This document shows, in pieces, positions 3,040 to 57,216 of a DNA stretch of 64,000 bases. A program made the position numbers and the translations under genes. Numbering within the stretch: the stretch's first letter is position 1; each line of letters begins with the position of its first letter. Origin of the DNA: Closterium sp. NIES-65 (Eukaryota > Streptophyta > Zygnematophyceae > Desmidiales > Closteriaceae); the NCBI GenBank assembly GCA_948144175.1, contig CANXME010002313.1, forward strand, positions 124,001-188,000. The letters run 5' to 3'. A model generated the notes under the pieces. It was not told the DNA's origin and searched no databases. It was given only the letters and a program-made list of their open reading frames with translations.

Positions 3040-5335
3040 TTTTTTGGTACTCATGACCCGGCGGAAGAAAAACTCTCAGAACGAGCATTTTCGACCCCAA
3101 AACGCGGAAGGATTCGCACGTGTGCAGAAAGTGCAGCGGGCATTCTCCATTCGAGAGTACCAATGGCCGATCATGCTCGCCACCCTCCCACGCTCTTGCT
3201 GGCTTGGTAATAGGTCCAGGCGCATGCAACCGAGTGACGCGGGGGAAGAAAAACGCTCGGAAGGAGCGCTTTCGGCGGCAAAGCGCGGAAGGGTCCGCCC
3301 GTGTATAGAACGTGTAGTGGGCGTTCTCCATTCACGAGTACGAATGTCCGATCATGCCCGCCACCCTCCCACGCTCTTGCTGGCTTGGTAATAGGTCCAA
3401 GCGCACGCAGCGGCGTGACGCGGCAAGAGAAAAACGCTCGGAACGAGCGCTTTCGGCCGCAAAGCGCGGAAGGGTCCGCACGTGTGCAGAACGTGCAGCG
3501 GGCGTTCTCCATTCACGAGTACGAATGCCGGATCATGCCCGCCACCCTCCCACGCTCTTGCTGGCTTGGTAATAGGTCCAAGCGCACGCAGCCGAGTGAC
3601 GCGGGGGAAGAAAAACGCTCGGAGGGAGTGCTTTCGACCGCAAAGCGTGGAAGGGTCCGCCCGTGTGCAGAACGTGCAGCGGGCGTTCTCCATTCACGAG
3701 TATGAATGCCGGATCATGCCTGCCACCCTCCCACGCTCTTGCTGGCTTGGTAATAGGTCCAGGCGCATGCAGCCGAGTGACGCGGCAAGAGAAAAACGCT
3801 CGGAACGAGCGCTTTCGGCTACAAAGCGCGGAAGGGTCCGCCAGTGTGCAAAACGTGCAGCGGGCGTTCTCCATTCACGAGTACGAATGCCCGATCATGC
3901 CCGCCACCCTCCCACGCTCTTGCTGGCTTGGTAATAGGTCCAAACGCACGTAGCCGCGTGACACGGCGGAAGAAGAACGCTCGGAACGAGCGTTTTCGGC
4001 CCCAAACCATGGAAGGATACGCACGTATGCAGAGTGCAGCGAGCATTCTCCATTCGCGAGTACCAACGACCGATCATGCCCACCACCATCCCACACTCTT
4101 GCTGGCTTGGTAATAGGCCCAAACGAACATAGCTGCGTGACGCGGCGGGAGAAGAAAGCTCGGAAGGAGCGTTTTCGGCTCCAAACCGCGGAAGGATCCG
4201 CACGTGTGCAGAAAGTGCAGGGGGCATCTCTATTCGCGAGTACCAATGACCAATCATGCCCGCCAACCTCTTACGCTCTTGCTGGCTTGGTAATAGGCCC
4301 AAACGAACGCAGCCGCGTGACGCGGCGAGAGAAGAACGCTCGGAGCGAGCGTCTTCGGCCCCAAAACGCGGAAGGATCTGCACGTGTGCAGAAAGTGCAG
4401 CGGGCATTTTCCATTCGCGAGTACCACTGACCGTGACACGGCGGGAGAAGAACGCTCAGAACGAGCGTCTTCGGCCCCAAAACGCGGAAGGATCCGCACG
4501 TGTGCAGAAAGTGCAGCAGGCACTCTCCATCTGCGAGTATCAATGCCCGCCACCCTCCCACGCTCTTGCTGGCTTAGTAATAGGTCCAAACGAACGCAGC
4601 CGGGTGACGCGGCGGGAGAATAACGCTCGGAACGAGCGTCTTTGGCCCCAAAATGCGGAAGGTTTCGCACGTGTGTAGAAAGTGCAGCGGGCACTCTCCA
4701 TTCGCGAGTACCAATGGCCGATCATGCCCGCCACCCTCCCACGCTCTTGCTGGCTTGGTAATAGGTCCATCGAACGCAGTTGCGTGACGCGGCGGGAGAA
4801 AAACGCTCGGAACGAGTGTGCTCGGCCCCAAAAAGCGGAAGGATCCGCACGTGTTCAGAAAGTTCAACAGACATTCTCCATTCGCGAGTACCAATGGCCA
4901 ATCATGCGCGCCAGCCTCCCACGCTCTTGCTGGCTTGATAATAGTTCCAAGCGCACGCAACCACAAGATGCGGCGGAAGAAAAACGCTCGGAACGAGCTG
5001 AAGGATCCGCACGTGTGTAGAAAATGCAGCAGACATTCATCATTTGCGAGTACCAATGACCGATCATGTCCGCCACCCTCCCGCGCTCTTGCTGGCTTTG
5101 TAATAGGTCCTAACGCATGCAGCTACGTGACGTTGCGAAACAAAACGCTCGGAACGAGCATTTTCGGCCCCAAAACGCGGAAGGTATCCGCATGTGTGCA
5201 GAAAGTGCAGCAGACGTTCTCCGTTCGCGAGTACCAATGACCGATCATGCCTGCCTCCCTCCCACGCCCTTGCTGGCTTGGTAATAGGTCCAAACGCATA
5301 CAGCCACGTGACCCAACGGAATAAAACGCATCCTA
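3040..5335 (-). repeat. Satellite array 1, ~181-bp unit, about 12 copies
   Basis: Tandem units of about 180-183 bp. Each has the landmarks CTTGCTGGCTTGGTAATAGG, an AACGCTCGGAACGAGCG inverted repeat and a GTGCAGCGGGC block. Read on the minus strand it is the same family as the array at 37437-44345, so the two arrays are in opposite orientation. Copies differ by scattered substitutions and small deletions; the unit near 4420 and that near 5000 are shortened. Overlapping open frames on both strands are by-products of the repeat. Confidence 0.92.
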
Positions 5336-18533: not shown

Positions 18534-20388
18534 ATGGCTCCTGCCAAACCGTCCACCGCTCGCGCTAGTCTTCCCTTATCCGTAGTATCAGTACTGCTCC
18601 TCTTCACCCTACTCCTCGTCGCCCGGCAAGCCTCGGCCGCCAATCTCCCATTGGACGGCTGTCAGTGCGGCAAGCTGCGGGGCCTGGAGCGAGCGCGAAT
18701 CAACGCCGTCAATTTCCGGCGATTCGATCAGATCGGGTCGTTCAACGGCGCCTTCAACAGCCACGGCGGCCGCCTCGTGCCCCACGAGCACGGTTCGGGC
18801 TCCGTCAACCTCGAGGTCTACCAGGTCAGTCAACCTCCCACTGCTGCTCACCGCTAGCCGCCTCCCTTCAGTCCGTTTCCCTAGGCTCCGCATGCTGCAC
18901 ATAAAAAACTGTTCTTTGCTTTCTTTGCTGTTTTTACCATGATTCAACGCCCGTCGCCCCCCGCGGCCACCGTCTCATGTTCCTCTTCCTCACTCCCCTC
19001 CGCCCGCCTTTCGCAACAGGAGGTCGGAAACTACGTGGAAGTGGTGCGGGGCCGCCCGGGCAGCACGCTCGAGGGGTGCTGCGCGGCGTGCGCGGCGTCC
19101 CCGCTGTGCCTGCAGTACCACTGGTTCCCCAGCGCGCAGCAGCGCCGCAACGCCAACGTGCGCGGGTTCGTGGCCGGCGCGCAGTGCTACCTGCTGGGGG
19201 CGGACGGCGGAGCGGGCGTGGCGGGGCACTTCAAGACGCCGTACAGCGGAGAGGCGGAGGAGCAGCGCATCATGGCGCCCTACTTCCCGCAGAGCTGGTA
19301 CCGCCCGCCCTTCCGCCACCCGCCCTTGAACCGCTCCTCCGCTTTTCTCCAATGTCACGTCGTCGCACATCACTTCTTTTTCATTCGTGATTTTTCTCGT
19401 GTCTACTCTGCCCCTCTCCGCCCATTCCTAATCCTTCCGCTTCTAACCCTCTGCTTGCCCGCTCTCCTTCCCCCCCTCCCCCTTCTTCTCCGCCAACAGG
19501 GTGGGCGGCATCTGCAACTCCTCCGCCATCCCCGCCTCCCCCCTCACGCTCCGCCGCCCCACTCAATCCGACCTCGCCACGCTGGACCCCGACAGCCAGC
19601 TCAGCAACACCTTCTGCCTACTCAGCGACCGCCGAATCCACGTCAACATCCGCCTGTCCGGCTACGACCCCGACCGCCTGCCCGCCCTCCCCGCGGACCC
19701 CCTCTCTGCCTCCGCTTCCGGCGCCGCTCTCCGCGGCCAATCCGTTCCCACCGCGCGCGCGCATGTCCGCGCGCACGGGTCCGCGGGGCTGCGCGCGTGG
19801 ATCAAGGAGGTGGGCGTGGTGTGGGTGGGGCACGAGGGGCGCCCGCACACGCTTCGGCTCGTCGCGCGCGGGGGGAAGCAGCAGGCGCGCGGGCGCGAGG
19901 GCTTTCTCGCGCTGGCGGAGATGGACGGCGTGCAGGTCGCTGTCCCCGCGGAGGTGGGCGCGGCGGCGGAGGGCGCGGGGGGACTGGTAGTGGCGAAGGT
20001 GGCGGAAGAGACAGACGGGGGGATGGACGTGGACCAATACGCGGTGATGATCCAGGGGCTGGCGGAGATCAACGTGCGCGCGCGCGTGGCGCATCCGCTG
20101 CTGCAGAGCATGGGGGAGGCGGAGGCGCATTTCATAATCGAGTTCATGGACCTGCAGACGACGCCCGCCATCCACGGCGTGTTGGGGCAGACGTTCCGGG
20201 AGACGCCTGACGGGCAGCACAGGGATCTCACGTACTCGCATCTCTCAGGGCTGCTGCTGCGCGCGGGGCACGAGGGGGAGGAGGGGGATGGTTTCCTGGA
20301 AGGCTCCGCGGGGGATTATGTGACGTCTGCCATCACCCGACCGGACTGTGCCTTCTCTGCCTTCCCGTCCATCCCCCTCCCTGCCTGA
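18534..20388 (+). CDS. Secreted PAN-like / root-cap-domain protein (three exons, 485 aa)
   Basis: Exons 18534-18824, 19020-19297 and 19500-20388 splice with GT-AG sites (CAG|GTCAGT, TTTCGCAACAG|GAG; TG|GTACCG, CCAACAG|G). Phases 0 and 2 join without a break. The start ATG sits in CACCATGG. Residues 1-35 are a signal peptide ending RQASA, so the product is probably secreted. Residues about 40-190 are cysteine-rich (EGCCAACAASPLC, AQCYLL), like a PAN/apple module. The C-terminal 290 residues fit the plant Root_cap family (PF06830): NTFCLLSDRRIHVNI, WIKEVGVVW and finally IHGVLGQTFRE, close to that family's VEGVLGQTYR signature. In land plants such proteins are extracellular and cell-wall linked; the biochemical role is unknown. 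The domain assignment is from remembered motifs. Confidence 0.85.
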
Positions 20389-21403: not shown

Positions 21404-24400
21404 TCACGGGTCAGGGTGAGTGAGCTTGGCCAGGAGCGTAAGCCCTTGAGGGTGGTCAGCACAGCGGCGCAGGAAAGGCAGCCAGCGCGCCGGGTCGGAG
21501 GAGCGGTGCCCTTGCTCCCTCACCCCTCCTGACCCGTCCCCTCGCGGGTCTGACGAGCACGTGAGGGCGAGAGGAGCCCCCAGGTGACACCCCTCTGCTG
21601 ACCAGCTGCGCGTGCATCCCCCCTGGTGCTCTCTGCCTGCTGCTGCTGCAGCGGCTGCCACTGCTGCTGCTGCTGGATCGCCGTGGTGACTCTCGGTGGT
21701 GGCGGTGGTGGCAGGGGGGTGTGAGAGCAGGAAGGGTGGGCGGCCGGCAAGGCCGCTGGCTAGATAGCCCTCGGGTGATTCTGGGCTGAAGGGGGGATGG
21801 GGAAGAGTGGAGAGAAGTGTGTGGGGCAGAGGAGATTGGAGGGAGGAGAGTGGGAGAAGGAGAACGAGGAGAAACAAACACCGTGTTGGCATGTGGCATG
21901 TGCAAGGATGCACAGACGCAATGCATGGAGGAATGAAAAAGGGAAGGGGAGAGAGGAACAACCGTGCTGACCTGGCAATGATGACGTGGCACGTGCTGAG
22001 CAGCCAGATCCGCAAAATCTCCATCTGATTGGCCGACAGCAGGCGCTCCTCCGAGTCATCCTCCACCTCAGCATGCACCGCCACCACACTGCCATGCCAG
22101 CCCAGCCCAGAGGGGGCTCATGCCATGCCAGCCCAGGGAGGCATCATGCCATGCCGTGCATGGGTGGGGATGGAATGAGGCATAGAGAGGAGAGGCAAAG
22201 AAGTGAAGGGAGGCAGAGATGGGAGGGCAGCAACGGTGCTGCACCTAATCCGCACTCCATCGCTCCCACCTAACCCACACATGCGGCAAACCACACACCA
22301 ACGAACCACAAGGGCCCCATGCCTCTCACTTGTGCACCTCTCTACGCAATGACTCTCATGCTGCTCACCTGTGCATTGGTGCTGCACCTAATCCGCCCTC
22401 CATTGCTCCCACCGAACCCACACATGCGGTCGCCCGGGAAACCACACACCAAGTAACCACAAGGGCCCCATGCCTCTCACTTGTTCACCTCTCTGCGCCA
22501 TGCCTCTCATGCCTCTCATGCCGCTCACCTGTGGTCCTCAGTGGGCCACAGATCACTCCCCATGCCTCTCATGCCATTCACCTCACTTGCAGGCGCTCAC
22601 CTGTGGTCCTCAGTGGGCCACTGCGCGTAGGCGCGTTTGAAGAACTTGAACGCCGTGAAGCTGTCCGCCGCCACAAACACTGCCACCACCCGTGCCCTCG
22701 CCCTCCCCCTCACCACGCCACGGCTGCTGCCGGGTTCACCCTCACTAGCATCGCCAGCACCACCACCACCACCACCACCACCACCACCACCACCACCACC
22801 ACCACCACCACCACCACCACCACCTGCAGCATCATGAGAGACGGAGCTTGTTTCCCCAGTGTGTTGTCTGATGTGCCCGCCTGCACCCATGCCTGCACCC
22901 ATGCCTGCACCCATGCCTGCACCCATGCCTGCACCCATGCCTGCACCCATGCCTGCACCCATGCCTGCACCCATGCCTGCACCCATGCCTGCACCCATGC
23001 CTGCACCCATGCCTGCACCCATGCCTGCACCCATGCCTGCACCCATGCCTGCACCCATGCCTGCTCCAACCTTCCCCACTTTGCTGTGTGACGCCGTCCT
23101 TCCCTCCCCACCCTGCGGCCGAGAGAAGAGCCCAAACCGCCGCCACTGAGGGCTACCCCCCCCGCTGCCTGCCTTCTTATGCACCCCTTCCCCCTTCCCT
23201 ACCCCTTTCCCTTCCCCCTGTCCTTCCCCCTGCCCTCCCCGCTCCCCCTCCTCTCTGTCCCCATCCAGCAGGGAGCGGGAGGAGAGGGAGAAGTGGCGCG
23301 CGCGGGAGGAGTGGTTGAGGAAGGCGGCGAGCTGCGACGGCGCCAGGGGCAGCGGCAGCACGCCGTGTGACATGCCGCACTCCAGGGCTTGCTGGGGGGA
23401 AGTTGAGAGGTGGGTCGAAAGGGGGGTGATGACAAGAGGGTGAGGTGAGGGAGAGGAATACATGCGTGCTGCTTCCACACAAGTGGGAGTAGCAGTCAAA
23501 CACTGGCATCCACCTCACACACATGCATCCCATCCCCGTCACACACACGCCTCCCATCCTCTTCACAACTCTCATCCCTCCCCTCCCCCTCAAAGCGCAC
23601 CTCTCTCATCGCCTCTTTCACCGCCACGCTCCCCCCAGCCGCCAGCTGCACGCCCACGGAGCGCCACGCGTGCACCAGGTGGCCCTGGTGCGCCCTGAGC
23701 GCCCTCTCCAACACGGCGTTGGCGGGCAGCAGCAGGTGGCGCGCGAGCGGGTGCAGCAGCACGCACCCCCTGGCATCCCCCCCCACCCCCCCCCCCCACA
23801 CCCTCATTCCTTCCCCCCCATAACCACCTCTCTCTCGCCTCCCTCGATGCCACGGTCCCCCCTGCCTCCAGCTGCACGCCCACAGACCGCCACGCGTGCG
23901 CCAGGTGCCCCTGGTGCGCCCTGAGCGCCCTCTCCCACACGGCATTGGCAGGCAACAGCAGGTAGCGCGCGAGCGGGTGCAGCAGCACGCTGAAAATCCT
24001 GGCATCCCCCCCCCGCACGCGCACCCCCTGGCACCCCCCGCACAAGCACGCTGCACGCCTCTCATCACCCCCCACGTACCTCCCTCATCGCCTCTTTCAT
24101 CGCAACGCTCCCCCCACTTGCAAGCTGCACGCCCACGGACCGCCATGCATGCGCGAGGTGGCCCTGATGCGCCCTCAGAGCGCGCTCCCACACGGCGTTG
24201 GCGGGCAGCAGCAGGTAGCGCGCGAGCGGGTGCAGCAGCACGCGGGAGGGGAAGAGGCGGTGCAGCGGGCGGTGGAAGGCGGGCAGCAGGAAGAGCGAGG
24301 GCAGCAGGTGCTGGTCTGAGAGCATTGCCAGCCACGTGGCGTTGCGGGCGAGCTGGGTCTGCATGGAGGAGCAGAAGAACTGCTCGTCCCATGGGTAGCG

Positions 24401-27400
24401 CTGTGCCTGTGGGGTGGGGAAGGGTTAGGTGATTGGGGTGGACGGGGAGAAGAGGGAAGGGAATGAATGGGGCAGCAGGAAGAGCGAGGGCAGCAGGTGC
24501 TGGTCTGAGAGCATTGCCAGCCACGTGGCGTTGCGGGCCAGCTGGGTCTGCATGGAGGAGCAGAAGAACTGCTCGTCCCATGGGTAGCGCTGTGCCTGGA
24601 GGGGTGGGGAAGGGGCGGGTGGATGGGGTGGATGGAAGGAGAGGGATGGTGAAGGAAGGGTGTCACCGAATAGATTGTTGTTTGCAATATATTCTGTTAC
24701 TCGCTAGTGTAGGTGTAGTAGGGTTAATGGAAGTACTGTAGAAGGTGAGTTTGGTGCGTGGGTAGTGACGTGAAGTGGTGACTCAGGGACTTGCGAGGCG
24801 CAGGGTGGGACAAATTCAAGGGCGAGCCCTGGGCAATCCCAAGGGCCAATCTGAAGCCTAGCGGGCGGAGCCCAATGTGACTTACGGGAAACTGCATGGC
24901 ACGGGGTAGAGACTCAAATAGGCTAGGAACTCACTGCTTAGTTCGTTCTCTTGTTTGTTTGCTCGTAATAGTGGATATAGGTTGCCGTTTGATAGCTAAC
25001 TCCAGCTTAGGCGACTAAGCCACTGTGGGCAGCCATACGTGGGGGATGCAGAATCTCTCGGTAGTGGCTGAGGCAGGGCAGGTAAGGTATGACAGGAACA
25101 GAGCTCAGAAGAAGAAGGGAGCGAGGGTGAGTCGGGGAAGGAGAAGGCAAGCCACGGGAAGCAACAGAGGATGATTCTCCGACAAGGGGCAGCACGTGAG
25201 GACTCGGGAAGGGCCAAATGGGATGGGCGTGCATGGATTCATGGATGCATGGACGCATGGATGCATGGACGCATGGATGCATGGACGCATGGATGCCTGG
25301 ATTCCTGGATTCCTGGATGCCTGGATTCCTGGATTCCTGGATTCCTCAAATCCTGGATGCATGGAGAGGTTGGAGGTGAAGAAGGGCCGCGAGGGCGAGG
25401 TGGGGATGAGAACGAAACCACTGCTTGTTGCTTTGAGTGAGGCAGACAGATCAAATGAGACGATGGCGTGTGGACACGACAAGCCAGGCTTGCAGGCAAG
25501 TCCAGCGTGGCATGCGTGCACTATGGTACATGTGCATGTGCATGTGCATGTGCATGTGCATGTGCATGTGCGTGTGCATGTGCATGTGCATGTGCATGTG
25601 CATGTGCATGTGCATGTGCATGTGCGTGTGCCTGTGCATGTGCATGTGCATGTGCATGTGCGTGTGCATGTGCATGTGCATGTGCGTGTGCATGTGCGTG
25701 TGCATGTGCATGTGCGTGTGCATGTGCATGTGCATGTGCCTGTGCATGTGCCTGTGCATGTGCATGTGCATGTGCCTGTGCATGTGCATGTGCGTGTGCA
25801 TGTGCGTGTGCATGTGCGTGTGCATGTGCGTGTGCATGTGCGTGTGCATGTGCGTGTGCATGTGCATGTGCATGTGCATGTGCATGTGCGTGTGCATGTG
25901 CATGTGCGTGTGCATGGGCATGTGCGTGTGCATGTGCCTGTGCATGTGCGTGTGCATGTTTGTGTGCGTGCGCATGTGCATGTGCATGTGGTGTGCATGT
26001 GCATGTGCCTGTGCGTGTGCATGTGCATGTGCATGTGCATGTGCATGTGCGTGTGCATGTGCATGTGCATGTGCATGTGCATGTGCATGTGCATGTGCAT
26101 GTGCATGTGCATGTGCATGTGCATCTGCATGGGCATGGCAGCAAGCTCACCTCAAAGTAGATGGTCGCCACGTCCCTGCGGTTGAGTGGCTGGCGGGGGA
26201 ACGACCGGAAGAGGAAGGGGTGGGACGAAGGGACAAAGAAAAGAGGAATACGTTGAAAAGGGGAAGGAGGGAGAGGGAGAGGAAAGTGCATGTGAAAAGA
26301 CGACAGCAGCAGCCATCCTCACCCTCTCTCCCGTCCCGTTTTCCTCACTCATTCCTCCTTCATTCCTCCCCCTCCCCTCTCTCTCCCGTTCACCCACCTC
26401 TCTCATGCCTTCACTCACACCTCTCTACCCTCCATCCCTCGCGCTCACACCGACTCACAGCAAAGAAGCTGTTGCTGGTGCTGCCGTTGACCCACTCGCC
26501 CTGGTGCGGCGGGTGCAGGCGGAAATGCTCTGGCAGGCCCGCTGGCAGCCACCAGGAGGAGCGCGGGAAGGGGTTGCACAGCAGACTGGAGGGAAGGGGG
26601 GGAGGGGAGGGGAGATGAAAAGAGGGAGAGACGGGGGAGGGATGTGGCAGAGTGAATGAGGCAGAGCAGGCAGCCACCAGGAGGAGCGCGGGAAGGGACT
26701 GATAGGTAGCTAAGCCACTGTGGGCAGCCATCGAGTGGGAGCAGGTGATGCAGAAGTTTCCGACAGTCCCACCTATCAGTCCCACCTATCAGTCCCACCT
26801 ATCAGTCCTACCTATCAGTCCCACCTATCAGTCCCACCTATCAGTCCCACCTATCAGTCCCACCTATCAGTCCCACCTATCAGTCCCAATTATCAGTCCC
26901 TCCTATCAGTCCCACCTATCAGTCCTACCTATCAGTCCCACCTATCAGTCCCACCTATCAGTCCCACCTATCAGTCCCACCTATCAGTCCCACCTATCAG
27001 TCCCACCTATCAGTCCCACCTATCAGTCCCACCCACCTATCAGTCCCACCTATCAGTCCCACCCACCTATCTGTCCCACCTATCAGTCCCACCTATCAGT
27101 CCCTCCTATCAGTCCCTCCTATCAGACCCACCTATCAGTCCCACCTATCAGTCCCACCTATCAGTCCCACCTATCAGTCCCACCTATCAGTCCCACCCAC
27201 CTATCAGTCCCACCTATCAGTCCCACCTATCAGTCCCACCTATCAGTCCCACCCACCTATCAGTCCCACCTATCAGTCCCACCCACCTATCAGTCCCACC
27301 TATCAGTCCCTCCTATCAGTCCCACCTATCAGTCCCACCTATCAGTCCCACCTATCAGTCCCACCTATCAGTCCCTCCTATCATCAGTCCCACCTATCAG

Positions 27401-30400
27401 TCCCACCTATCAGTCCCACCTATCAGTCCCACCTATCAGTCCCACCTATCAGTCCCACCTATCAGTCCCACCCACCTATCAGTCCCACCTATCAGTCCCA
27501 CCTATCAGTCCCACCTATCAGTCCCTCCTATCATCAGTCCCACCTATCAGTCCCTCCTATCAGACCCACCTATCAGTCCCACCCACCTATCAGACCCACC
27601 TATCAGACCCACCTATCAGTCCCACCTATCAGTCCCTCCTATCAGTCCCACCTATCAGTCCCACCTATCAGTCCCACCTATCAGTCCCACCTATCAGTCC
27701 CACCTATCAGTCCCACCTATCAGTCCCACCTATCAGTCCCACCTATCAGTCCCACCTATCAGTCCCACCTATCAGTCCCACCCACCTATCAGTCCCACCT
27801 ATCAGTCCCACCTATCAGTCCCTCCTATCATCAGTCCCACCTATCAGTCCCACCTATCAGTCCCACCTATCAGTCCCACCCACCTATCAGTCCCACCTAT
27901 CAGTCCCACCTATCAGTCCCACCTATCAGTCCCTCCTATCATCAGTCCCACCTATCAGTCCCTCCTATCAGACCCACCTATCAGTCCCACCCACCTATCA
28001 GACCCACCTATCAGACCCACCTATCAGTCCCACCTATCAGTCCCACCTATCAGTCCCACCTATCAGTCCCACCTATCAGTCCCACCTATCAGTCCCACCT
28101 ATCAGACCCACCTATCAGACCCACCTATCAGACCCACCTATCAGTCCCACCTATCAGTCCCACCTATCAGTCCCACCTATCAGTCCCACCTATCAGTCCC
28201 ACCTATCAGTCCCACCCACCTATCAGTCCCACCTATCAGTCCCACCTATCAGTCCCACCTATCAGTCCCACCTATCAGTCCCTCCTATCAGTCCCACCTA
28301 TCAGTCCCACCTATCAGTCCCACCTATCAGTCCCACCTATCAGTCCCACCTATCAGTCCCACCTATCAGTCCCACCTATCAGTCCCACCTATCAGTCCCT
28401 CCTATCAGTCCCTCCCATCAGTCCCTCCTATCAGAAATGAGGGGACAGGAGCAGGTGATGCAGAAGATTCCGACATGTCAACGAGCAGCATGAGGGAGTG
28501 AAGCGGAGAGCAGCAAGAGGGAGTGAAGCGGAGAGCAGCATGAGGGAGTGAAGCGGAGAGCAGCATGAGGGAGTGAAGCAGAGAGCAGCATGAGGGAGTG
28601 AAGCGGAGAGCAGCATGAGGGAGTGAAGCGGAGAGCAGCATGAGGGAGTGAAGCGGAGAGCAGCATGAGGGAGTGAAAGCAGTACGTGCGTCACTGGGCA
28701 GGTCGCCCTGCGTGTGGACGAGCAGACCTAGGTGAGCAGTGCGTAGAGGAAGGCGAGCTTAGAGTCGACTCAACAAGCGGTGGCAGTGTGGGTGTGGGAT
28801 TCACCTGGGCAGGTCGCCCTGTGTGTCAACGAGCAGTGCGCGGTGGGTGAGCAGCGCATAGAGGAAGGCGGAGAGCAGCGACAGCAGGCGCTGTGCCACA
28901 CTGGGGCGTGTCTGTGGCTCGTACCACACCAGGTAGCTGCGGGGGAGTGGGGGGCAGAGATGGGGAAGGGAGGAGGGAGCTATGAGTGCTGTGGGGGTGC
29001 GTCGAAAGGCGGAAATTCTCAGATCACCATGCCGCTCACCTGCACGCCCCCACCTGCACGCCCCCACCTGCACGCCCCCACCTGCACGCCCCCACCTGCA
29101 CGCCCCCCCACCTGCATGTGCTTCGTGGCGCCTCCAGTTTCTCTGCGTGTGCCTCCCAGCTCTGCACACCCGCCACACACTCCTGTGCGCGCACACACAC
29201 GGGGAGAGAGATGCACGCATGCAGCGAAGCGCATGGGGAGAGGAGAGGAGAGAGCAAGATGGATGAGAGGCAAAGGGAGACGAGAATCGGTTGGATGGGA
29301 AAGCGAGACGTTGAGTGTGCATGCCACCATCACCACAACGACCAACTCCGTCTCCCCCAACAACCCCCCCACCACCACCACTACCCCCCCCCCCCCCCCC
29401 CCGTCACCTCGTGCATGCGCTCGTAGGCGCGGAGAGCAGCGCAGGGAACCATCCCCCTTGAGCCCCCACACTTCCCCCCCCAACCCCACCACCACCCCTC
29501 CCCCACCCCTTTCTCACCTCGTGCATGCGCTCGTAGGCGCGGAGAGAAGAGAGCAGCGCGGGGGAGGGCGAGTGGGGCGAGGGGGGAAGGAGCAGCGGGC
29601 GCTCGTGCAGCGCCCAGCACGACTGCCCCTCCTCCGCGCCCTCCAGGCGAGCCAAGTCCTCCTGGGCGTGCAGCAGCAGGTCGCTGTGCACTGCCGCTGC
29701 TGCTGCTGATGCCGCCCGGGGCGACGGGTCTCCTGCCTCCTGCTGCGTGGGGGGTGGGAGGGACGAGGAGTGAGGGGCATGGGGGAACGACGCCCCCTCC
29801 GCACCCTCCAGGTGGGCCAGGTCCTCCTGCGCGTGCAGCAGCAGGTCGCCCTGCCCCGCTGCTGCTCCTGAGGTCGAGTGAGTGAGTGGTGCCAGCAGCA
29901 TGGGAGGGACGGCAGCAGCGCGGTGAAAGCAGGGGCAGCAAGGCACGAGTGGGCAGCAGCACAAGATGGTGGCCCACCTTGCGAGTGGAGGGCAGGGACG
30001 GGCTAGCGAGCAGCAGCAGCAGCAGCAGCCCCACCACCACACAGCAGCCCACTGCACCCAACCCCACCATCGCCACCTGCCTTCTCCGTACTCCCCTCCC
30101 CTCCCTCCCATCCCTGCCCTCTCTCCCATCCCTGCCCTCTCTCCCATCCCTGCCCTCTCTCCCATCTCTGCCCTCTCTCCCATCCCTCTCTTCCCTGCCA
30201 TCCCTACCGTCCCTGCCAAGTCCCGCCCAGTCTCTCACCCATTCTGCCTCCTGCCACCACCGCCACACCTGCTCTGCTGCTCCCACCGCCAACCCCACCA
30301 CCCCCCTCCGCCTCCTCTTATGCGCCTCCCCGTACCCATCCCCATACTGTTCCCCCCCCATCCCCCCTGCCCCGCCCACCCCATACCATGCCCCAATTCC

Positions 30401-33539: not shown

Positions 33540-34025
33540 CGGTTTGTGTGCGAGGTGACGGAGAGGGCGGTGGGTGTGGAGGTGACGGAGAGGGCGGTGG
33601 GCGTGGAGGTGACGGAGAGGGCGGTGGGCGTAGAAGTGACGGAGAGGGCGGTGGGCGTGGAGGTGGCGGAGAGGGCGGTGGGCGTGGAGGTGACGGAGAG
33701 GGCGGTGGGCGTGGAGGTGACGGAAAGGGCGGTGGGCGTGGAGGTGACGGAGAGGGAGGTGGGCGAGGAGGTGACGGAGAGGGGGGTGGGCGAGGAGGAG
33801 ACGGAGAGGACGGTGGGCGTGGAGGTGACGGAGAGGGCGGTGGGCGTGGAGGTGACGGAGAGGGCGGTGGGCGTGGAGGTGACGGAGAGGGTGGTGGGCG
33901 TGGAGGTGACGGAGAGGGCGGTGGGCGTGGAGGTGACGGAGAGGGCGGTGGGCGTGGAGGTGACGTAGAGGGCCGTGGGCGTGGAGGTGACGGAGAGGGC
34001 GGTGGGCGTGGAGGTGACCCGCGGC
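33540..34025. repeat. 27-bp purine-rich minisatellite, about 18 copies
   Basis: Units around GGTGACGGAGAGGGCGGTGG on the plus strand. Because 27 is a multiple of three, frames stay open; the minus strand reads (PSPSPPRPP)n. A hydroxyproline-rich wall protein is possible in principle, but the flanking frame shows nothing gene-like, so I treat it as a repeat. Confidence 0.88.
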
Positions 34026-34189
34026 GTGCGGCGGGGCCAGCAGCTTGCTTGCCTGCATTCTTATCGCACGTTTGATCACACAGCGCATGCAAAAAGTGAG
34101 CCACCACACTGCCTGCTCCACCACACACACTGCACCGTACTCTACCGCATTCAACATCCATACCCTCACAGCTCTCACCGTGTCCTTCC

Positions 34190-37100
34190 TTCACCCCGCC
34201 CCATTCTCCCGCTTTCCATCACCCCGCCCCATTCTCCCGCTTTCCATCACCCCGCACCATTCTCCCTCCTTCCATCAACCCGCCCCATTCTCCCTCCTTC
34301 CATCGCCCTGTCTCATTCTCCCACTTTCTATCACCCTGCCCCATTCTCCCGCTTTCAATCACCCCGCCCTATTCCCCCTCTTTCCATCACCCCGCCCCAT
34401 TCTCCCTCTTTCCATCACCTCGCCCCATTCTCCCTCTTTCCATCACCCCGCCCCATTCTCCCGCTTTCCATCACCCCGCCCCATTCTCCCTCTTTCCATC
34501 ACCTCGCCCTATTCTCCCTCTTTCCATCACCCCACCCCATTCTCCCACTTTCCATCACCCCGCCCCATTCTCCCGTTTTCCAGCACTCCGCCCCATTCTC
34601 CCTCTTTCCATCAACCCGCCTCATTCTCCTGCTTTTCAGCACCCCGCCCCATTCTCCCACTTTCCATCACCCCGCCCCATTCTCCTGCTTTCCATCACCC
34701 CGCCCCATTCTCCCGCTTTCCATCACCTCGCCCCATTCCCCTGCTTTCCATCACCCTGCCCCATTCTCCCGCTTTCCATCACCCCGCCCCATTCTCCCGC
34801 TTTCCATCACCCTGCCCCATTCTCCCGCTTTCCATCACCCCGCCCCATTCTCCCGCTTTCCATCACCCCGCCCCTTCTCCCGCTTACCACTACCCGGCCC
34901 CATTCCCCCGCTTTCCATCACCTCGCCCTATTCTCCTGCTTTACATCACCCCGCCCCATTCTCCCGCCTTCCATCACCCCGCCCCATTCTCCCGCTTTCC
35001 ACCACCCCGCCCCATTCTCCCTCTTTCCATCACCCTGCCCCATTCTCCCGCTTTCCATCACCCCACCCCATTCTCCCGCTTTCCACCACGCCGCCCCATT
35101 CTCCCTCCTTCCATTACCCCGCCCCATTCGCCCGCTTTCCATGACCCCGCCCCATTCTCCCGCTTTCCATCACCCCGCCCTATTCTCCCGCCTTCCATCA
35201 CCCCGCCCCATTCTCCAATTTTCCATCACCACGCCCCTTCTCCCACTTTCCATCACCCCGCCCCATTCTCCCGCTTTCCATCACCCGGCTCCATTGTTCC
35301 GCGTTCCATCACCCCGCCCCTTTCTCCCTCCTATCATCACCCCGCCCCATTCTCCCGCTTTCCATCACCCCGCTCCATTTTACCGATTTCCATCACCCCG
35401 CCCCATTCTCCCGCATTCCGTCCCCCCGCCCCATTCTCCCACTTTCCATCACCCTGCCCCGTTCTCCCTCCTTCCATCACCCTACCCCATTCTCCCTCCT
35501 TCCATTACCCCGCCCCATTCTCCCTCCTTCCATCACCCTACCCCATTCTCCCTCCTTCCATCACCCCGCCCCATTCTCCCGCTTTCCATCACCTCGCCCC
35601 ATTCTCCCGCTTTCCATCACCCCGCCCCATTCTCCCGCTTTCCATCACCCCGCCCCATTCCCCAGCTTTCCATTACCCCGCCCCATTCCCCCGCTTTCCA
35701 TCACCCCGCCCCATTCTCCCGCTTACCACCACCCCGCCCCATTCCCCCGCTTTCCATCTCCCCGCCCTATTCTCCTGCTTTCCATCACCCCGCCCCATTC
35801 TCCCTCTTTCCATCACCCCGCCCCATTCTCCCGTTTTCCACCACCCCGCCCCATTCTCCCTCTTTCCATCACCCTGCCCCATTCTCCCGCTTTCCGTCAC
35901 CCCGCCCCATTCTCCCGCTTTCTACCACCCCGTCCCATTCTCCCTCCTTCCGTCACCACGCCCCCTTCTCCCGCTTTCCATCACCCCACCCCATTCTCCC
36001 GCTTTCCATCACCCTGCCCCATTCTCCCTTTTTCCATCACCCCGCCCCATTCTCCCGCTTTCCATCACCCCGCCCCATTCTGGCGCTTTCCATCACCCCG
36101 CCCCATTCTCCTGCTTTCCATCACCCCGCCCCATTCTCCCGCTTTCCATCACTCCGCCCCATTCTCCCGCTTTCCATCACCCCACCCCATTCTCCCTCTT
36201 TCCATCACCCCGCCCCATTCTCCCTCCTTCCATCACCCCGCCCCATTCTCCCGCTTTCAATCACCCCGCCCCATTCTCCTACTTTCCATCACCCCGCCTC
36301 ATTCTCTCCCGCTTTCCATCACCCCGCCCCATTCTCCCGCTTTCCATCCCCATTCTCCCGCTTTCCGTCACCCCGCCCCATTCTCCTGCTTTCCATCCCC
36401 ATTCTTCCACTTTCCATCACCCCGCCCTATTCTCCCACTTTCCATCACCCCGCCCCATTCTCCCGCTTTCTATGACCCCGCCCCATTCTCCCTCTTTCCA
36501 TCACCCCACCCCATTCTCCCACTTTCCATCACCCCGCCCCATTCTCCCTCCTTCCATCACCCCGCCCCATTCTCCCTCCTTCCATCACCCCGCCCCATTC
36601 TCCCGTTTTCCATCACCCTGCCCCATTCTCCCGCTTTCCATCACCCCGCCTCATTCTCTCCCGCTTTCCATCGCCCCGCCCCATTCTCCCGCTTTCCATC
36701 ACCCCGCCTTATTCTCCCGCTTTCCATCACCCCGCCCCATTCTCCCGCTTTCAATCCCCATTCTCCCGCTTTCCATCCCCATTCTTCCACTTTCCATCAC
36801 CCCGCCCCGTTCTCCCGCTTTCCATCACCCCGCCCCATTCTCTCGCTTTCCATCACCCCGCCCCATTCTCCCGCTTTCCATGACCCCGCCCCATTCTCCC
36901 GCTTTCCATCACCCCACCCCATTCTCCCGCTTTCCATCACCCCACCCTATTCTCCCGCTTTCCATCACCCCGCCCCGTTCTCCCGATCTCCATCACCCCG
37001 CCCCATTCTCCCGCTTTCCATCACCCCGCCCCATTCTTCCTCCTTCCATCACCCCGCCCCATTCTCCCGCTCCACATCACCCCGCCCCATTCTCCCGCTT

Positions 37101-37437
37101 TCCATCACCCCGCCCTATTCTACCGCTATCCATCATTCCGCCCCATTCTCTTGCTTTCCATCACCCTGCGCCACTCATCCGCTTTCTATCACCCCGCCCC
37201 ATTCTCCCTCCTTACATCACCCCACCCGATTCTCCCGCTTTCCATCACCCCGCCCCATTTTTGCTTCCATCACCCCGCCCCATTCTCCCGCTTTCCATCA
37301 CCCCGCCCTATTCTCCTGCTTTCCATCACCCCACCCCATTCTCCCGCTTTCCATCACCCTGCCCCATTCTCCCTCTTTCATCACCCCGCCCCTTACTCCT
37401 GCTTTCTATCACCGTGCCCCACTCTCCCTCTTTCCAT
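34190..37437. repeat. 27-bp pyrimidine-rich minisatellite, about 120 copies
   Basis: Units around CCATTCTCCCGCTTTCCATC followed by ACCCCGC. The plus strand is strongly pyrimidine-biased for over 3 kb. All three forward frames stay open for hundreds of codons for arithmetic reasons. It ends exactly where the 181-bp satellite starts (CATCATG|TGGCTGCGC). Confidence 0.94.
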
Positions 37438-40400
37438 CATGTGGCTGCGCTTGTCTGGTTCTATTACCAAGCCAGCAAGGGCATGGGAGGGTTGCAAGCA
37501 TCATCGGTTATCGGCGCTCGCGAATGAAGAGCGCCCGCTGCACATCCTGCACATGTTCGACTCCTTCCGTGTTTTGGGGGTGGAAGCGCTCATTACGAGC
37601 GTTTTTCTTCCGCTGGGTCACATGGCTGCCCTTCTAGTCCTATTACCAAGCCAGCAAGGGCGTGGAAGAGCTGCAAGCATTATCGGCCATCGGCGCTCGC
37701 AAATGAAGAGCGCCTGCTGCACGTCCCACACATATTCAGCTCCTTCCGCGTTTTGGGGATGGAAGCGCTCGTTCCGAGCGTTTTTCTTGTGCCGGGTCAC
37801 GTGACTGCGCTTGTCTGGTCCTATTACAAAGCCAGCAAGGGCGTGGGAGGGTTGCAAGCATCATCGGTTATGGGCGCTCGCGAATGAAGAGCGCCCGCTG
37901 CACTTCCTTCACCTGTTCGGCTCCTTCCGTGTTTTGGTGGTGGAAGCGCTCGTTACGAGCGTTTTGCTTCCGCCGGGTTATGTGGCTGCGCTTTTGGTCC
38001 TATTACCAAGCCAGGAAGGGCGTGGAAGAGGTGCAAGCATTATCGGCCATCGGCGCTCGCAAATGAAGAGCGCCCGCTGCACTTCCTGCACAAGTGCGGC
38101 TCCTTTCGCGTTTTGGTGGTAGAAGCGCTCGTTCCGAGCATTTTTCTTCCGCCGGGTCCCGCGGTTGCGCTTGTCGGGTCCTATTACCAAGCCAGCAAGG
38201 GTGTGGGAGGGTTGGAAGCATCATCGGTCATCGACGCTCACGAATGTAGCGCGCCCGCTGCACATCCTGCACATGTGCGGCTCCTTCCGCGTTTTGGGGG
38301 TGGAAGCGCTCGTTCCGAGGGTTTTTCTTCTGCCGGGTCATGTGACTGCGCTTGTCTGGTCCTATTACCAAGCCAGCAAGGACGTGGGACGGTCGCAATC
38401 ATCATCGGTCTGTCTGGTCCTATTACGAGCGTTTTTCTTCCGCTGGGTCACATGGCTGCCCTTCTAGTCCTATTACCAAGCCAGCAAGGGCGTGGAAGAG
38501 CTGCAAGCATTATCGGCCATCGGCGCTCGCAAATGAAGAGCGCCTGCTGCACGTCCCGCACATATTCAGCTCCTTCCGCGTTTTGGGGATGGAAGCGCTC
38601 GTTCCGAGCGTTTTTCTTGTGCCGGGTCACGTGGCTGCGCTTGTCTGGTCCTATTACAAAGCCAGCAAGGGCGTGGGAGGGTTGCAAGCATCATCGGTTA
38701 TGGGCGCTCGCGAATGAAGAGCGCCCGCTGCACTTCCTTCACCTGTTCGGCTCCTTCCGTGTTTTGGTGGTGGAAGCGCTCGTTACGAGCGTTTTGCTTC
38801 CGCCGGGTTATGTGGCTGCGCTTTTGGTCCTATTACCAAGCCAGGAAGGGCGTGGAAGAGGTGCAAGCATTATCGGCCATCGGCGCTCGCGAATGAAGAG
38901 CGCCCGCTGCACTTCCTGCACAAGTGCGGCTCCTTTCGCGTTTTGGTGGTAGAAGCGCTCGTTCCGAGCATTTTTCTTCCGCCGGGTCCCGCGGTTGCGC
39001 TTGTCGGGTCCTATTACCAAGCCAGCAAGGGTGTGGGAGGGTTGGAAGCATCATCGGTCATCGGCGCTCACGAATGTAGAGCGCCCGCTGCACATCCTGC
39101 ACATGTGCGGCTCCTTCCGCGTTTTGGGGGTGGAAGCGCTCGTTCCGAGGGTTTTTCTTCTGCCGGGTCATGTGACTGCGCTTGTCTGGTCCTATTACCA
39201 AGCCAGCAAGGACGTGGGACGGTCGCAATCATCATCGGTCATCGGCGCTCGCAAATGAAGAGCGCCTGCTGCATTTCCTTCACTAGTGCGGCTCCTTCAG
39301 CGTTTTGGTGGTGGAAGCGCTCGTTCCGAGCATTTTTCTTCCGCCAGGTCACGAGGCTGCGCTTGTCTGGTCCTATACCAAGCTAGCAAGGGCATGGGAG
39401 GGTCGGAATCATCATCGGTCATCGCCGCTCGCGAATGTAGAGCGCCCGTTGCACTTCCTGCACACGTGCGGCTCCTTCCGCCTTTTGGGGGTGGAAGCGC
39501 TCGTTCCGAGCGTTTTTCTTCCCCCGAGTCATGTGGTTGGGCTTGTCTGGTCCTATTACCAAGCCAGCAAGAGCGTCATAGGGCTGCAAGCATCATCGGT
39601 TATCGGTGCTCGCGAATGAAGACCGCCCGATGCACTTCCTGCACATGTGCGGCTCCTTCCGCGTTTCGGGGGTGGAAGTGATCGTTCCGAGCGGTTTTCT
39701 TCCGCGGGGTCACGTGGCTGCGCTTGTCTGGTCCTATTACCAAGCCAGCAAGGGCGTGGGAGGGTTGCAATCATCACCGGTCATCGGCGCTCGCGAATGA
39801 AGAGCGCCCGCTGCACTTCCTTTACATGTTCAACTCCTTCCGTGTATTGGGGGTGGAAGCGCTCGTTCCGAGCATTTTGCTTCCGGCGGGTCACGTGGCT
39901 GCGCTTCTGGTCCTATTACCAAGCCAGCAAGGGCGTGGAAGAGCTGCTAGCATCATCGGCCATCGACGCTCGCGAATGAAGAGCGCCCGCTGCACTTCAT
40001 GCACAAGTGCGGCTTCTTCTGGGTTTTGGGGGTGGAAGCGCTCGTTCTGAGCGTTTTTCCTCCGCTGGGTCACGTGGCTGCACTTTGATGGTCCTATTAC
40101 CAAGCCAGCAAGGGCGTGGGAGGGTTGCAAGCATCATCGGTTATCGGCGCTCGCGAATGAAGAGCGCCCGCTGCACTTCCTGCACATGTTCGACTCCTTC
40201 CGTGTTTTGGGGGTGGAAGCGCTCGTTCCGATCGTTTTTCTTCCGCCGGGTCATATGGCTGCCCTTCTAGTCCTATTACCAAGCTAGCAAGGGCGTGGAA
40301 GAGCTGCAAGCAATATCGGCCATCGGCGCTCGCAAATGAAGAGCGCCTGCTGCACTTCCTGCAGATGTTCGGCTCCTTCCACGTTTTGGGTGTGGAAGCG

Positions 40401-43400
40401 CTCGTTCCGAGCGTTTTTCTTGCACCGGGTCACGTGGCTGCGCTTGTCTGGTCCTATTACCAAGCCAGCAAGGGCGTGGGAGGGTTGCAAGCATCATCGG
40501 TTATCGGCGCTCGCGAATGAAGAGCGCCCGCTGTACTTCCTGCACAAGTGCGGCTCGTTCCGCGTTTTGGTGGTGGAAGCGCTCGCTCCGAGGGTTTTTG
40601 TTCCGACGGGTCACGGGGCTGCCCTGTCTGGTCCTATTACCAAGCCAGCAAGGGCGTGGGAGGGTTGTAAGCATCATCGGTGATGGGCGCTCGCGAATGA
40701 AGAGCGCTCGCTGCCCTTCCTGCACATGTTTGACTCCTTCCGTGTTTTGGGGGTGGAAGCGCTCTTCCCGAGCGTTTTTCTTCCGCCGGGTCACATGGTT
40801 GCCCTTCTAGTCCTATTACCAAGCGAGTAAGAGCGTGGAAGAGCTGCAAGCATCATCGGCCATCAGCGCTCGCAAATAAAGAGCGCCTGCTGCACTTCCT
40901 GCACATGTTCGGCTCCTTCCGCGTTTTGGGGGTGGAAGCGCTCGTTCCGAGCGTTTTTCTTCCGCCGGATCACGTGGCTGCGCTTGTTTGGTCCCACTAC
41001 CAAGCCAGCAAGGGCGTGGGAGGGTTGCAAGCATCATCGGTTATGGGCGCTCGCGAATGAAGAGCGGCCGCCGCACTTCCTTCACTTGTTCGGCTCCTTC
41101 CGTGTTTTGGGGGTGGAAGCGCTCGTTCCGATTATTTTGCTTCCGCCGGGTCACGTGGCTACGCTTCTGGTCCTATTACCAAGGACGTGGAAGAGCTGCA
41201 AGCATTATGGGCCATCGGCGTTCGCGAATGAAGAGTGCCCGCTGCACTTCCTCCACAAGTGCGGATCGTTCCGCGTTTTGGTGGTGGAAGCGCTCGTTCC
41301 GAGGGTTTTTCTTCCGCCGGGTCATGGGGCTGCGCTTGTCTGGTCCTATTACCAAGCCAGCAAGGGCGTGGGAGGGTTGCAAGCATCATCGGTCATCGGC
41401 GCTCGCGAATGAAGAGCGCCCGCTGCACTTTCTGCACATGTTCGAGTCCTTCCGTGTTTTGGTGGTGGAAACGCTCGTTCCGAGCGTTTTTCTTCCGCCG
41501 GGTCACATGGCTGCCCTTCTGGTCCTATTATAAGGCCAGCAAGGCCGTGGAAGAGTTGCAAGCATTATCAGCCATCGGCGCTCGCGAATGAAGAGCGCCC
41601 GCTCCACTTCCTGCACAAGTGCGGCTCCTTCCGCGTTTTGGTGGTGGAAGCACTCGTTCTGAGGGTTTTTCTTCCGCCGGGTCACGGGGCTGCGCTTGTC
41701 TGGTCCTATTACCTAGCCAGAAAGGCCGTGGGAGGGTTACAAGCATCATCGGTCATCGGCACTCGCGAATGAAGAGCGCCCGCTGCATTTCCTGCACAAG
41801 TGCGGCTCCTTCCACGTTTCGGGGGTGGAAGCGCTTGTTCCGAGCGGTTTTCTTCCGCAAGGTCACGTGGCTGCGCTTGACTGGTCCTATTACCAAGCCA
41901 GCAAGGGCATGGGAGGGTCTCAATCATCATCGGTCATCGGCGCTCGTGAATGAAGAGCGCCCGCAGCACTTTCTGCACAAGTGCGGCTCCTTCAGCGTTT
42001 TGGTGGTGTAAGCGCTCGTTCCGAGCGTTTTTCTTGCGCCTGGTCACGAGGCTGCCCTTGTCTGGTTCTATACCAAGCCAGCAAGAGCGTGGGAGGGTTG
42101 CAATCATCATCGGTCATCGCCGCTCGCGAATCTAGAGCGCCGGCTGCACTTCGTGCACACGTGCGGCTCCTTCCGCGTTTTGGGGGTGGATGCGCTCGTT
42201 CCGAGCGTTTCTTCCGCCGAGTCATGTGCTTGGGCTTGTTTGGTCCTATTACCAAGCCAGCAAGAGTGTCGTAGGGCTGCAAGCATCATCGGTCATCGGC
42301 GCTCGCGAATGAAGACCGCCCGCTGCACTTCCTGCACATATGCGGCTCCTTCCGCGTTTTAAGGTGGAAGCGCTCGTTTCGAGCAGTTTTCTTCTGCTGG
42401 GTCACGTGGCTGCGCTTGTCTGGTCCTATTACCAAGCCAGCAAGGGCGTGGGAGGGTTGCAATCATCACCGGTGATCGGCGCTCGCGAATGAAGAGCGCC
42501 TGCTACACTTCCTTCACATGTTCGGCTCCTTCTGTGTTTTGGTGGTGGAAGCGCTTGTTCCGAGCGTTTTGCTTCCGCCGGGTCACGTGGCTGCGCTTTT
42601 GGTCCTATTACCAAGCCAGCAAGGGCGTGGAAGAGCTGCAAGCATCATCGGTTATTGGCACTCGCGAATGAAGAGCGCCCGCTGCACTTCCTGCACAAGT
42701 GCGGCTCCTTCCGCGTTTTGGTGGTGAAAGCGCTCGTTCCGAGGAATTTTCTTCCGCCGGGTCATGGGGGTGCGCTTGTCTAGTCCTATTACCAAGCCAG
42801 CAAGGGCGTGGGAGGGTTGCAAGCATCATCGGTCATCGACGCTCGCGAATGAAGAGCGCCCGCTGCACCTCCTGCACAAGTGCGGCCCCTTCAGCGTTTT
42901 GGTGGTGGAAGCGCTCGTTCCGAGCGTTTTTCTTGCGTGGGGTCACGGGGCTGCGCTTGTGCGGTCCTATACCAAGCCAGCAAGGGCGTGGGAGGGTTGC
43001 AATCATCATCGGTCATCGCCGCTCGTGAATGTAGAGCGCCCGCTGCACTTCCTGCACACGTGCGGCTCCTTCCGCGTTTTGGGGGTGGAAGCGCTCGTTC
43101 CGAGCGTTTTTGTTTCGCCGAGTCATGTGGTTGGGCTTATTTGGTCCTATTACATAGCCAGCAAGAGCGTTGTAGGGCTGCAAGAATCATCGGTCATCGG
43201 CGCTCGCGAATGAAGACCGCCCTCTGCACTTCTTGCACATATGCAGCTCCTTTCGCGTTTTGGGGGTGGAAGCGCTCGTTCCAAGCGTTTTTCTTCCGCC
43301 GGGTCACTTGTCTGCGCTTGTCTGGTCCTTTTACCAAGCCCAGAAGGGCGTGGGAGGGTTGCAAGCATCATCCATCATCGCCGCTCGCGAATGAAGAGCG

Positions 43401-44345
43401 CTCGCGGGGTGGAAGCGCTCGTTCCGAGCGCTTTTCTTCCGCCGGGTCACGGGGGTGCACTTGTCTGGTCCTATTACCAAGCGAGCAAAATCGTGAGAGG
43501 GTTGCATGCATCATCGGTCATCGGCGCTCGCAAATGAAGAGCGCCCGTTGCACTTCGTGCACATGTGCGGCTCCTTCCATGTTTTTGGGGGTTCAAGCGC
43601 TTGTTCCGATAGTTTTTCTTCCACCGGGTCACGTGTCTGCGCTTGTCTCATCGTGTTACCAAGCCACCAAGGTCATGGGAGGGTCGCAAACATCATGGGT
43701 CATCAGCGCTTGCGAATGAAGAGCGCCCGCTGCACTTCTTGCACAAGTGCGGCTCCTTCCGCGTTATGGGGGTGGAAGCGCTCGTTCCGAGCGGTTTTTT
43801 TCGGCCGGGTTACATGGCTGCACTTGTCTGGTCCTTTTACCAAGCCAGGAAGGGCGTGGGAGGGTTGCAAGAATCATCGGCCATCGGCGCTCGCGAATGA
43901 AGAGCGCCCGCTTCACTTCCTGCACATGTTCGGCTCCTTCTGTCTCTTGGGGGTGGAAGCGCTCGTTCCGAGCGTTTTTCTTCCACCGGGTCACGTGGCT
44001 GCGCTTCTGGTCCTATTACCAAGCCAGCAGGGGCTTGGAAGAGCTGCAAGCATCATCGGCCATCGGCGCTTGTGAATGAAGAGCGCCCGCTGCACTTCCT
44101 GCACAAGTGCGGATCCTTCTACGTTTTGGTGGTGGAAGCGTCCGTTCCGAGCGTTTTTCTTGCGCCGGGTCACGTGGCTGCGCTCGTCTGGTCCAACTAC
44201 AAAGCCAGCAAAGGCGAGGGAGAGTTGCAAATATCATGCGTCATCGGCGCTCGCGAATGAAGAGCGCTCGCTGCACTTCCTTCACATGTGCGGCTCTAGA
44301 AGCGTTTTGCGGTGGAAGCGCTCGTTCCGAGCGTTTTGGCGGTGA
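37437..44345 (+). repeat. Satellite array 2, ~181-bp unit, about 38 copies
   Basis: Units contain CCTATTACCAAGCCAGCAAG, GAATGAAGAGCGCCCGCTGC and the inverted repeat CGCTCGTTCCGAGCG. The family is that of 3040-5335 in opposite orientation. Copies differ by a few percent; subtypes alternate (for example ACATGTTC versus ACAAGTGC). An approximately 830-bp block at 37590-38420 is repeated at 38420-39250. The last unit is truncated at the 17-bp array. Confidence 0.94.
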
Positions 44346-51148: not shown

Positions 51149-51338
51149 GCAAGATCCTAGACCAGGCAAGATCCTGGACCAGGCATGCTCCTGGACCAGG
51201 CAAGCTCATGGACTAGGCAAGCTCTTGGACCAGGCTAGCTGTTGGACCAGGCAATCTCTTGGACCAGGCAATTGCGGAGATAACTACTACAACGGGAGCT
51301 AGACTACGGGCTAGGCACGGGTGATCGTGTGATATCTG
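51149..51338. repeat. Duplicated flank: 17-bp units plus first ~65 bp of the copia G LTR
   Basis: Matches 57093-57283 with a few changes, then switches abruptly at about 51339 into the RT of copia E. It marks a duplication or recombination junction. Confidence 0.8.
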
Positions 51339-57092: not shown

Positions 57093-57216
57093 GCAAGATC
57101 CTAGACCAGGCAAGATCCTGGACCAGGCATGCTCCTGGACCAGGCAAGCTCCTGGACTAGGCAAGCTCTTGGACCAGGCTAGCTGTTGGACCAGGCAATC
57201 TCTTGGACCAGGCAAT
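57093..57216. repeat. 17-bp minisatellite between copia E and copia G
   Basis: About seven units of the same family as 44346-50270, showing that E and G both landed in that array. Confidence 0.88.

Follow-up and report, generated by a model that had tools for sequence, protein, structure and literature searches.

Two copies of a divergent GT37-like gene in Closterium sp. NIES-65 differ in the length of in-frame tandem repeats

Introduction

A predicted glycosyltransferase-like gene of the streptophyte alga Closterium sp. NIES-65 raises the question of how two tandem repeats, a 12-bp minisatellite and a run of glycine codons, came to lie in frame between two segments of GT37 homology, and of what they mean for the protein. 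The gene lies in a stretch of 64,000 nucleotides (the window; positions 124,001 to 188,000 of contig CANXME010002313.1), which belongs to an assembly of 874.1 Mb in 2400 contigs. GT37-type sequences have been reported from charophycean green algae (PMC8211770), and a literature search for minisatellites in Closterium found none.

The gene model and its homology to GT37

Four exons (e1 to e4) are modelled on the reverse strand, with phases that agree and 538 residues up to the stop codon. Exon e1 (24080-24406) encodes a GT37 segment ending VGVQLASGG...AMRE; its open reading frame alone scores 73.5 bits against the XG_FTase profile PF03254 (profile positions 215-304; curated cut-off 23.4 bits) and matches AtFUT1 with an E-value of 3.5e-16, and the spliced model attains 101.5 bits. 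Exon e3 (21972-22088; VVAVHAEVEDD...HVIIA) and the C-terminal exon e4 (21404-21785), which has the stop at its end, both align to AtFUT1, the latter with SPEGY in place of STFGY. An N-terminal exon fragment on the same strand, at 28804-28938 (C2015:152804-152938), matches profile positions 102-143. The 305-residue frame that holds e2 alone has no match to PF03254; a linker-free piece of e2 to e4 reaches 25.3 bits. Homology to AtFUT1 is found on both sides of the insertion, in e1 and from the end of e2 to e4, where the translation with its low-complexity parts removed aligns to AtFUT1 residues 340-475 (E 2e-5). The Pfam matches end at profile position 331 ahead of the linker and start at 355 in the linker-free piece, and the insertion therefore falls within a short stretch of the family profile.

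Judged by these matches, the locus is predicted to be a divergent GT37 (xyloglucan-fucosyltransferase-like) gene, whose nearest relative, beyond the second copy described below, is 46% identical. AtFUT1, a xyloglucan 2-fucosyltransferase of GT37 with known structures (PDB 5koe, 5kwk, 5kop, 5kor, 5kx6), is homologous before and after the linker, with the same order of segments, but has about 25 residues from a conserved cysteine (304) to the next strand, as estimated from alignments, where the window gene has 229.

Parts of e1 occur more than once. Internal duplications of this exon span 23589-24595 in the window and 77199-78423 of contig C2365, which carries the second copy (copy B, that of the window being copy A). 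On the reverse strand of the window they comprise a partial copy of the beginning of e1 (24461-24595), for which no splice donor was seen by eye, a second copy of the motif-I segment (23797-23991), and a third (23589-23762) that runs on into VRFEGEGRDESC. There are two YPWDEQFFC segments in the window and three in copy B, and three motif-I segments in each. Exon e1 may have been scrambled by conversion among these duplicate segments.

The repeat exon and its two arrays

Exon e2 (22601-23391, reverse strand; 791 nt, or 263 codons plus 2 nt) combines an open frame with splice-like ends (CCCCAG/CAAGCC...CACAG/GTGAGC, the slashes marking its boundaries), both of which are kept in copy B. Its peptide begins QALECGMSHG... 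and ends ...FKFFKRAYAQWPTEDH, its phase is consistent with the modelled exons upstream and downstream, and frame 0 is free of stops, which occur in frames 1 and 2. Tandem Repeats Finder reports two arrays in it: 15.5 copies of a 12-mer with 100% match and a score of 372 (22879-23064), and 23.7 copies of CCA with 97% match (22754-22824). On the reverse strand the former holds 15 perfect units of a 12-bp minisatellite, translated as (GAGM)15 (22885-23064), and the latter a polyglycine tract encoded by (GGT)22 (22759-22824), so that the translated exon carries Gly-Ala-Gly-Met fifteen times and a longest glycine run of 22. Repeat finder and translation thus uphold the initial annotation, which had read both repeats as lying in frame in one exon, and its placement of them between two GT37-homologous segments agrees with the homology and exon phase on both sides. 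The same linker also holds a degenerate 12-mer array on the reverse strand (23185-23251; 5.6 copies, 78%), present in copy B as well.

The openness of the arrays was rejected as proof of coding, because all three sense-strand frames of both arrays are free of stops. Repeat lengths in multiples of three were rejected too: the argument is circular, since the length of a unit fixes them, and among this gene's intronic arrays the unit lengths are mixed. The coding case for e2 is made by flanking homology and phase, within a predicted gene model. A search of the window for known RNA elements gave none at the gathering threshold.

A second copy in the same genome

A colinear second copy, mostly 94-99% identical, lies on contig C2365 of the same genome. 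Longer matches between the copies around the gene measure 98.1% over 2109, 98.6% over 3518 and 99.4% over 1469 bases, with further ones of 94.3% over 1646 and 98.7% over 2476 bases, and other stretches lie at 82.9-91.6%. The repeat exon of copy B, its frame also open, has 569 nt, 222 nt fewer than in copy A, with one GAGM and four glycines; the difference consists of two gaps, one of 168 nt (14 units of 12) and one of 54 nt (18 codons of 3). The intron between e1 and e2 shows gaps of 29, 1 and 1 nt, and two more 1-nt gaps lie upstream of e1. The array lies in an open exon and its length differs between the two copies, and it may be a coding minisatellite.

That the insertion varies in length, as had been proposed, is borne out by the 791 and 569 nt of the two copies; the word polymorphic, used in the same proposal, may have to be read as a difference between duplicates if the genome is haploid. 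The published description of the genome of NIES-65, of the Closterium peracerosum-strigosum-littorale complex, states that it was sampled in the haploid phase and that more than half of its ortholog groups are duplicated (PMC10407611). If the sampling was indeed haploid, copies A and B would be segmental or whole-genome duplicates and not alleles, and they probably are duplicates within one haploid genome.

The introns of the two copies also differ in their arrays. Copy A has an intronic (CATGTG)n 6-mer array of 609 bp (25529-26137) and a 13-mer array of about 124 copies and 1671 bp (26764-28434), both without assigned strand and neither listed in copy B, which has an intronic 21-mer array of its own (18 copies, 375 bp) that the listing for copy A does not contain. 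Between the N-terminal exon and the e1 duplicates the intron is about 4.2 kb long in A and 1.5 kb in B, largely because of the two arrays absent from copy B. Since the intronic arrays of A and B are unlike, repeat turnover is locus-wide and extends beyond the exon, and the arrays particular to copy B indicate that repeat growth is not restricted to copy A.

Linkers in related GT37-like genes

The initial annotation had considered an insertion at this point odd for a glycosyltransferase, a view that the relatives in the same genome do not sustain. With 90 of 141 candidates scored, a search of the assembly with PF03254 gave at least 79 matches, many of which are exons of genes split by introns. 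Linkers were measured in the fetched part of the family, in rows whose frame no intron or stop breaks between motif I and the following strand. All nine such rows, which represent six distinct genes (L001/L006, L002/L003, L007/L008, L028, L029 and L030), show a low-complexity linker in this same position, of 51, 79, 106, 113, 119 or 136 residues and with 44-61% glycine, alanine and serine. So has a pair with broken frames, L052/L053, where it measures about 50 residues if the stops are read as they stand. As every relative measured has a long low-complexity linker at this place, the insertion is less odd than claimed; what sets the window gene apart is a linker of 229 residues (155 in copy B) with a long perfect minisatellite, which the relatives, with Gly/Ala/Ser-rich linkers of 50-136 residues, lack. 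Linker length is equal in both copies of all three other paired genes measured, and fast length change is therefore not general.

The linkers of L030 and L028 contain alanine runs and are unequal in length (119 and 136 residues). In intron-split members the intron seems to begin directly after GIQ, and a search of these members with C-terminal pieces found STFGY-like stretches in L032 and L039, with weak E-values only. L052 (C1771:20500-24000) and L053 (C2061:1222800-1226300) form a GT37-like pair with stops inside the conserved part; their PF03254 matches (C1771:21779 and C2061:1224466) cover profile positions 198-386 in 615 bases. The stops occur on both contigs of the pair, which suggests that the gene was broken before or at its duplication.

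Origin of the arrays

It is rather likely that the two tandem repeats expanded in place, probably recently and by a slippage-type process, in a loop that already existed and tolerated them. Replication slippage or unequal exchange would have led to the growth of both repeats within the GT37-like exon, in the linker that joins the segment following motif I to the next strand in the donor-binding half. This linker being already long, rich in glycine, alanine and serine, and variable in relatives, extra units would be tolerated while the frame holds. Slippage as the cause, and growth instead of loss as the direction, fit this reading, under which the linker would be translated, disordered and functionally near-neutral; the loop is probably floppy.

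An exact search of the assembly for a 30-base double-unit pattern of the 12-mer gave 14 matches, which all overlap within this array; since the pattern occurs nowhere else, the array seems to have grown in place. A mobile or dispersed repeat as the source of the 12-mer was rejected on the same 14 of 14 matches, with the reservation that diverged copies would escape an exact search. Three substitutions within 8 nt beside the array were considered as a signal of clustering, and proved too weak (P about 0.045 by simulation).

Repeat growth of this kind looks like an ordinary event, an extreme case of a common process. Tandem-repeat indels that keep the frame, in the disordered parts of long internal exons, are described in PMC12457776, and length variation of short tandem repeats in Arabidopsis proteins in PMC10032594. 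The present case shares with theirs the gain or loss of repeat units in structure-less coding regions, and differs in that a 12-bp unit and a glycine codon change together within a glycosyltransferase-like fold.

Donor-site motifs and selection

Whether the product would be an enzyme is a separate matter. The arginine of motif I (GIQxR) and the STFGY motif are invariant in a five-sequence family alignment, and both are present in the alignments of AtFUT1 and FUT4. Among the uninterrupted rows of relatives, a motif search with no arginine in its pattern found the residue kept in nine of nine, and STFGY is present in all eight rows that reach it (the L008 frame stops earlier). AtFUT1 has both features, but the window protein has neither: the six motif-I segments of copies A and B read VGVQLA or VGVQLE, the modelled protein having alanine at the place of the arginine (the exon end is uncertain here), and SPEGY stands for STFGY in both copies. 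An alternative transcript might carry an arginine, because the third motif-I duplicate reads on into VRFEGEGRDESC (VRFEG).

FUT8 belongs to family GT23. In the human enzyme Arg365 is reported to touch the pyrophosphate and its alanine mutant to be inactive (PMC7033129), and GT37 and the family of FUT8 have been placed in one superfamily (PMC8439653). The motif-I arginine of GT37 would correspond to this Arg365, and the window protein may have weak fucosyltransferase activity or none. The localisation of the repeats to a GT37 catalytic domain therefore stands as regards GT37 homology on both flanks, while the word catalytic becomes doubtful, with the motif-I arginine and STFGY absent from the model. 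One possible reading of the sequence is that the gene carrying the long repeats has also lost its donor site.

These substitutions also bear on the view that the gene is a decaying pseudogene, in which relaxed selection lets repeats grow freely and nothing useful is translated. This we regard as unlikely, though it has some weight: besides the arginine missing from all six segments and the SPEGY, the gene contains partial exon copies, and broken relatives with internal stops (L052/L053) exist in the same genome. Against decay, the four modelled exons keep an open frame and matching phases in A and B alike and run to the homologous C-terminus. The plainly broken L052/L053 still has the motif-I arginine (GLKGR), so that loss of the arginine and decay of the frame are uncoupled in that pair. 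Coding changes between A and B, the extra units omitted, number 14.5 on 358 synonymous sites and 12.5 on 1037 non-synonymous sites, a pN/pS of 0.30 over the whole model (Fisher p about 0.002, on rounded counts), which also speaks against decay. About half of all changes fall in e1 (9.5 synonymous, 4.5 non-synonymous; pN/pS 0.16). In e2, the pN/pS of 0.52 is more favourable to decay, but it is drawn from just 10 changes (4 synonymous, 6 non-synonymous) and is compatible with neutrality. The comparison of the two copies favours past constraint on the predicted protein, and not strongly on the repeat exon.

Splicing, tether and artefact

The array might also be spliced out as an in-frame exitron, from part of the transcripts or from all of them, in which case the repeat would matter little for the protein. 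Copy A has 82 GT-AG pairs, in frame and no shorter than 60 nt, that would excise all or nearly all of the array (78 would remove all of it), and known exitrons are stated to affect disordered regions and to be multiples of three in about half of the cases (PMC4484396); many such pairs are expected, however, in G-rich repeats. No candidate donor scores above 6 on a crude 9-point scale, where the donors of the modelled introns score 7, 8 and 7. Candidate acceptors score up to 11 on the same crude scale, against 13, 6 and 15, the best exceeding one of the three; it belongs to the top-ranked pair, which spans 288 nt with acceptor CATGATGCTGCAG and leaves the polyglycine in place. By these crude scores none of the many pairs is compelling as an intron that removes the array, and we hold the exitron to be improbable.

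Much further from the expansion of a tolerated loop lies the speculative notion of a streptophyte-algal branch of GT37 with a repeat-tuned tether, the window protein being a non-catalytic scaffold or partner with a reach that depends on the number of repeats and is unequal in the duplicates. This seems very improbable to us; if true, it would amount to a built-in link between two parts of the donor-binding half, which has grown in this gene, where the donor-site residues are gone. An assembly or sequencing artefact, whether a wrong repeat number or one locus represented by two contigs, is extremely improbable, for although tandem repeats are error-prone, the contigs differ also in introns, exon duplications and flanks, and both arrays are clean and in frame.

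The surrounding sequence

Several other features of the window may be recorded. Blocks of an approximately 181-bp tandem repeat, apparently of the same unit in opposite orientation and satellite-like, occupy 3054-5329 and 37437-44337. A 17-bp array of about 347 copies (AAGCTCCTGGACCAGGC) covers 44346-50270, with short related arrays at 51149-51271 and 57093-57215, and about 117 copies of a 28-bp unit form an array at 34186-37439, where the strand skew is very strong (GC skew -0.74 in 34001-36000). Open frames at 18885-20388 on the forward strand show weak, below-cut-off matches to PAN_4 and Root_cap, and perhaps belong to a neighbouring gene on the other strand.

Significance

The interest that remains in this locus lies in the size of the linker, in the short and long forms of the repeat exon, and in a donor site that this gene may have lost. 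The two copies offer a clean, natural short/long pair of one predicted coding repeat in a glycosyltransferase fold, within one genome. More broadly, the related genes suggest that a streptophyte alga has a set of GT37-like genes in which a low-complexity linker occupies a fixed position, a point of use to the annotation of cell-wall fucosylation in land-plant relatives.
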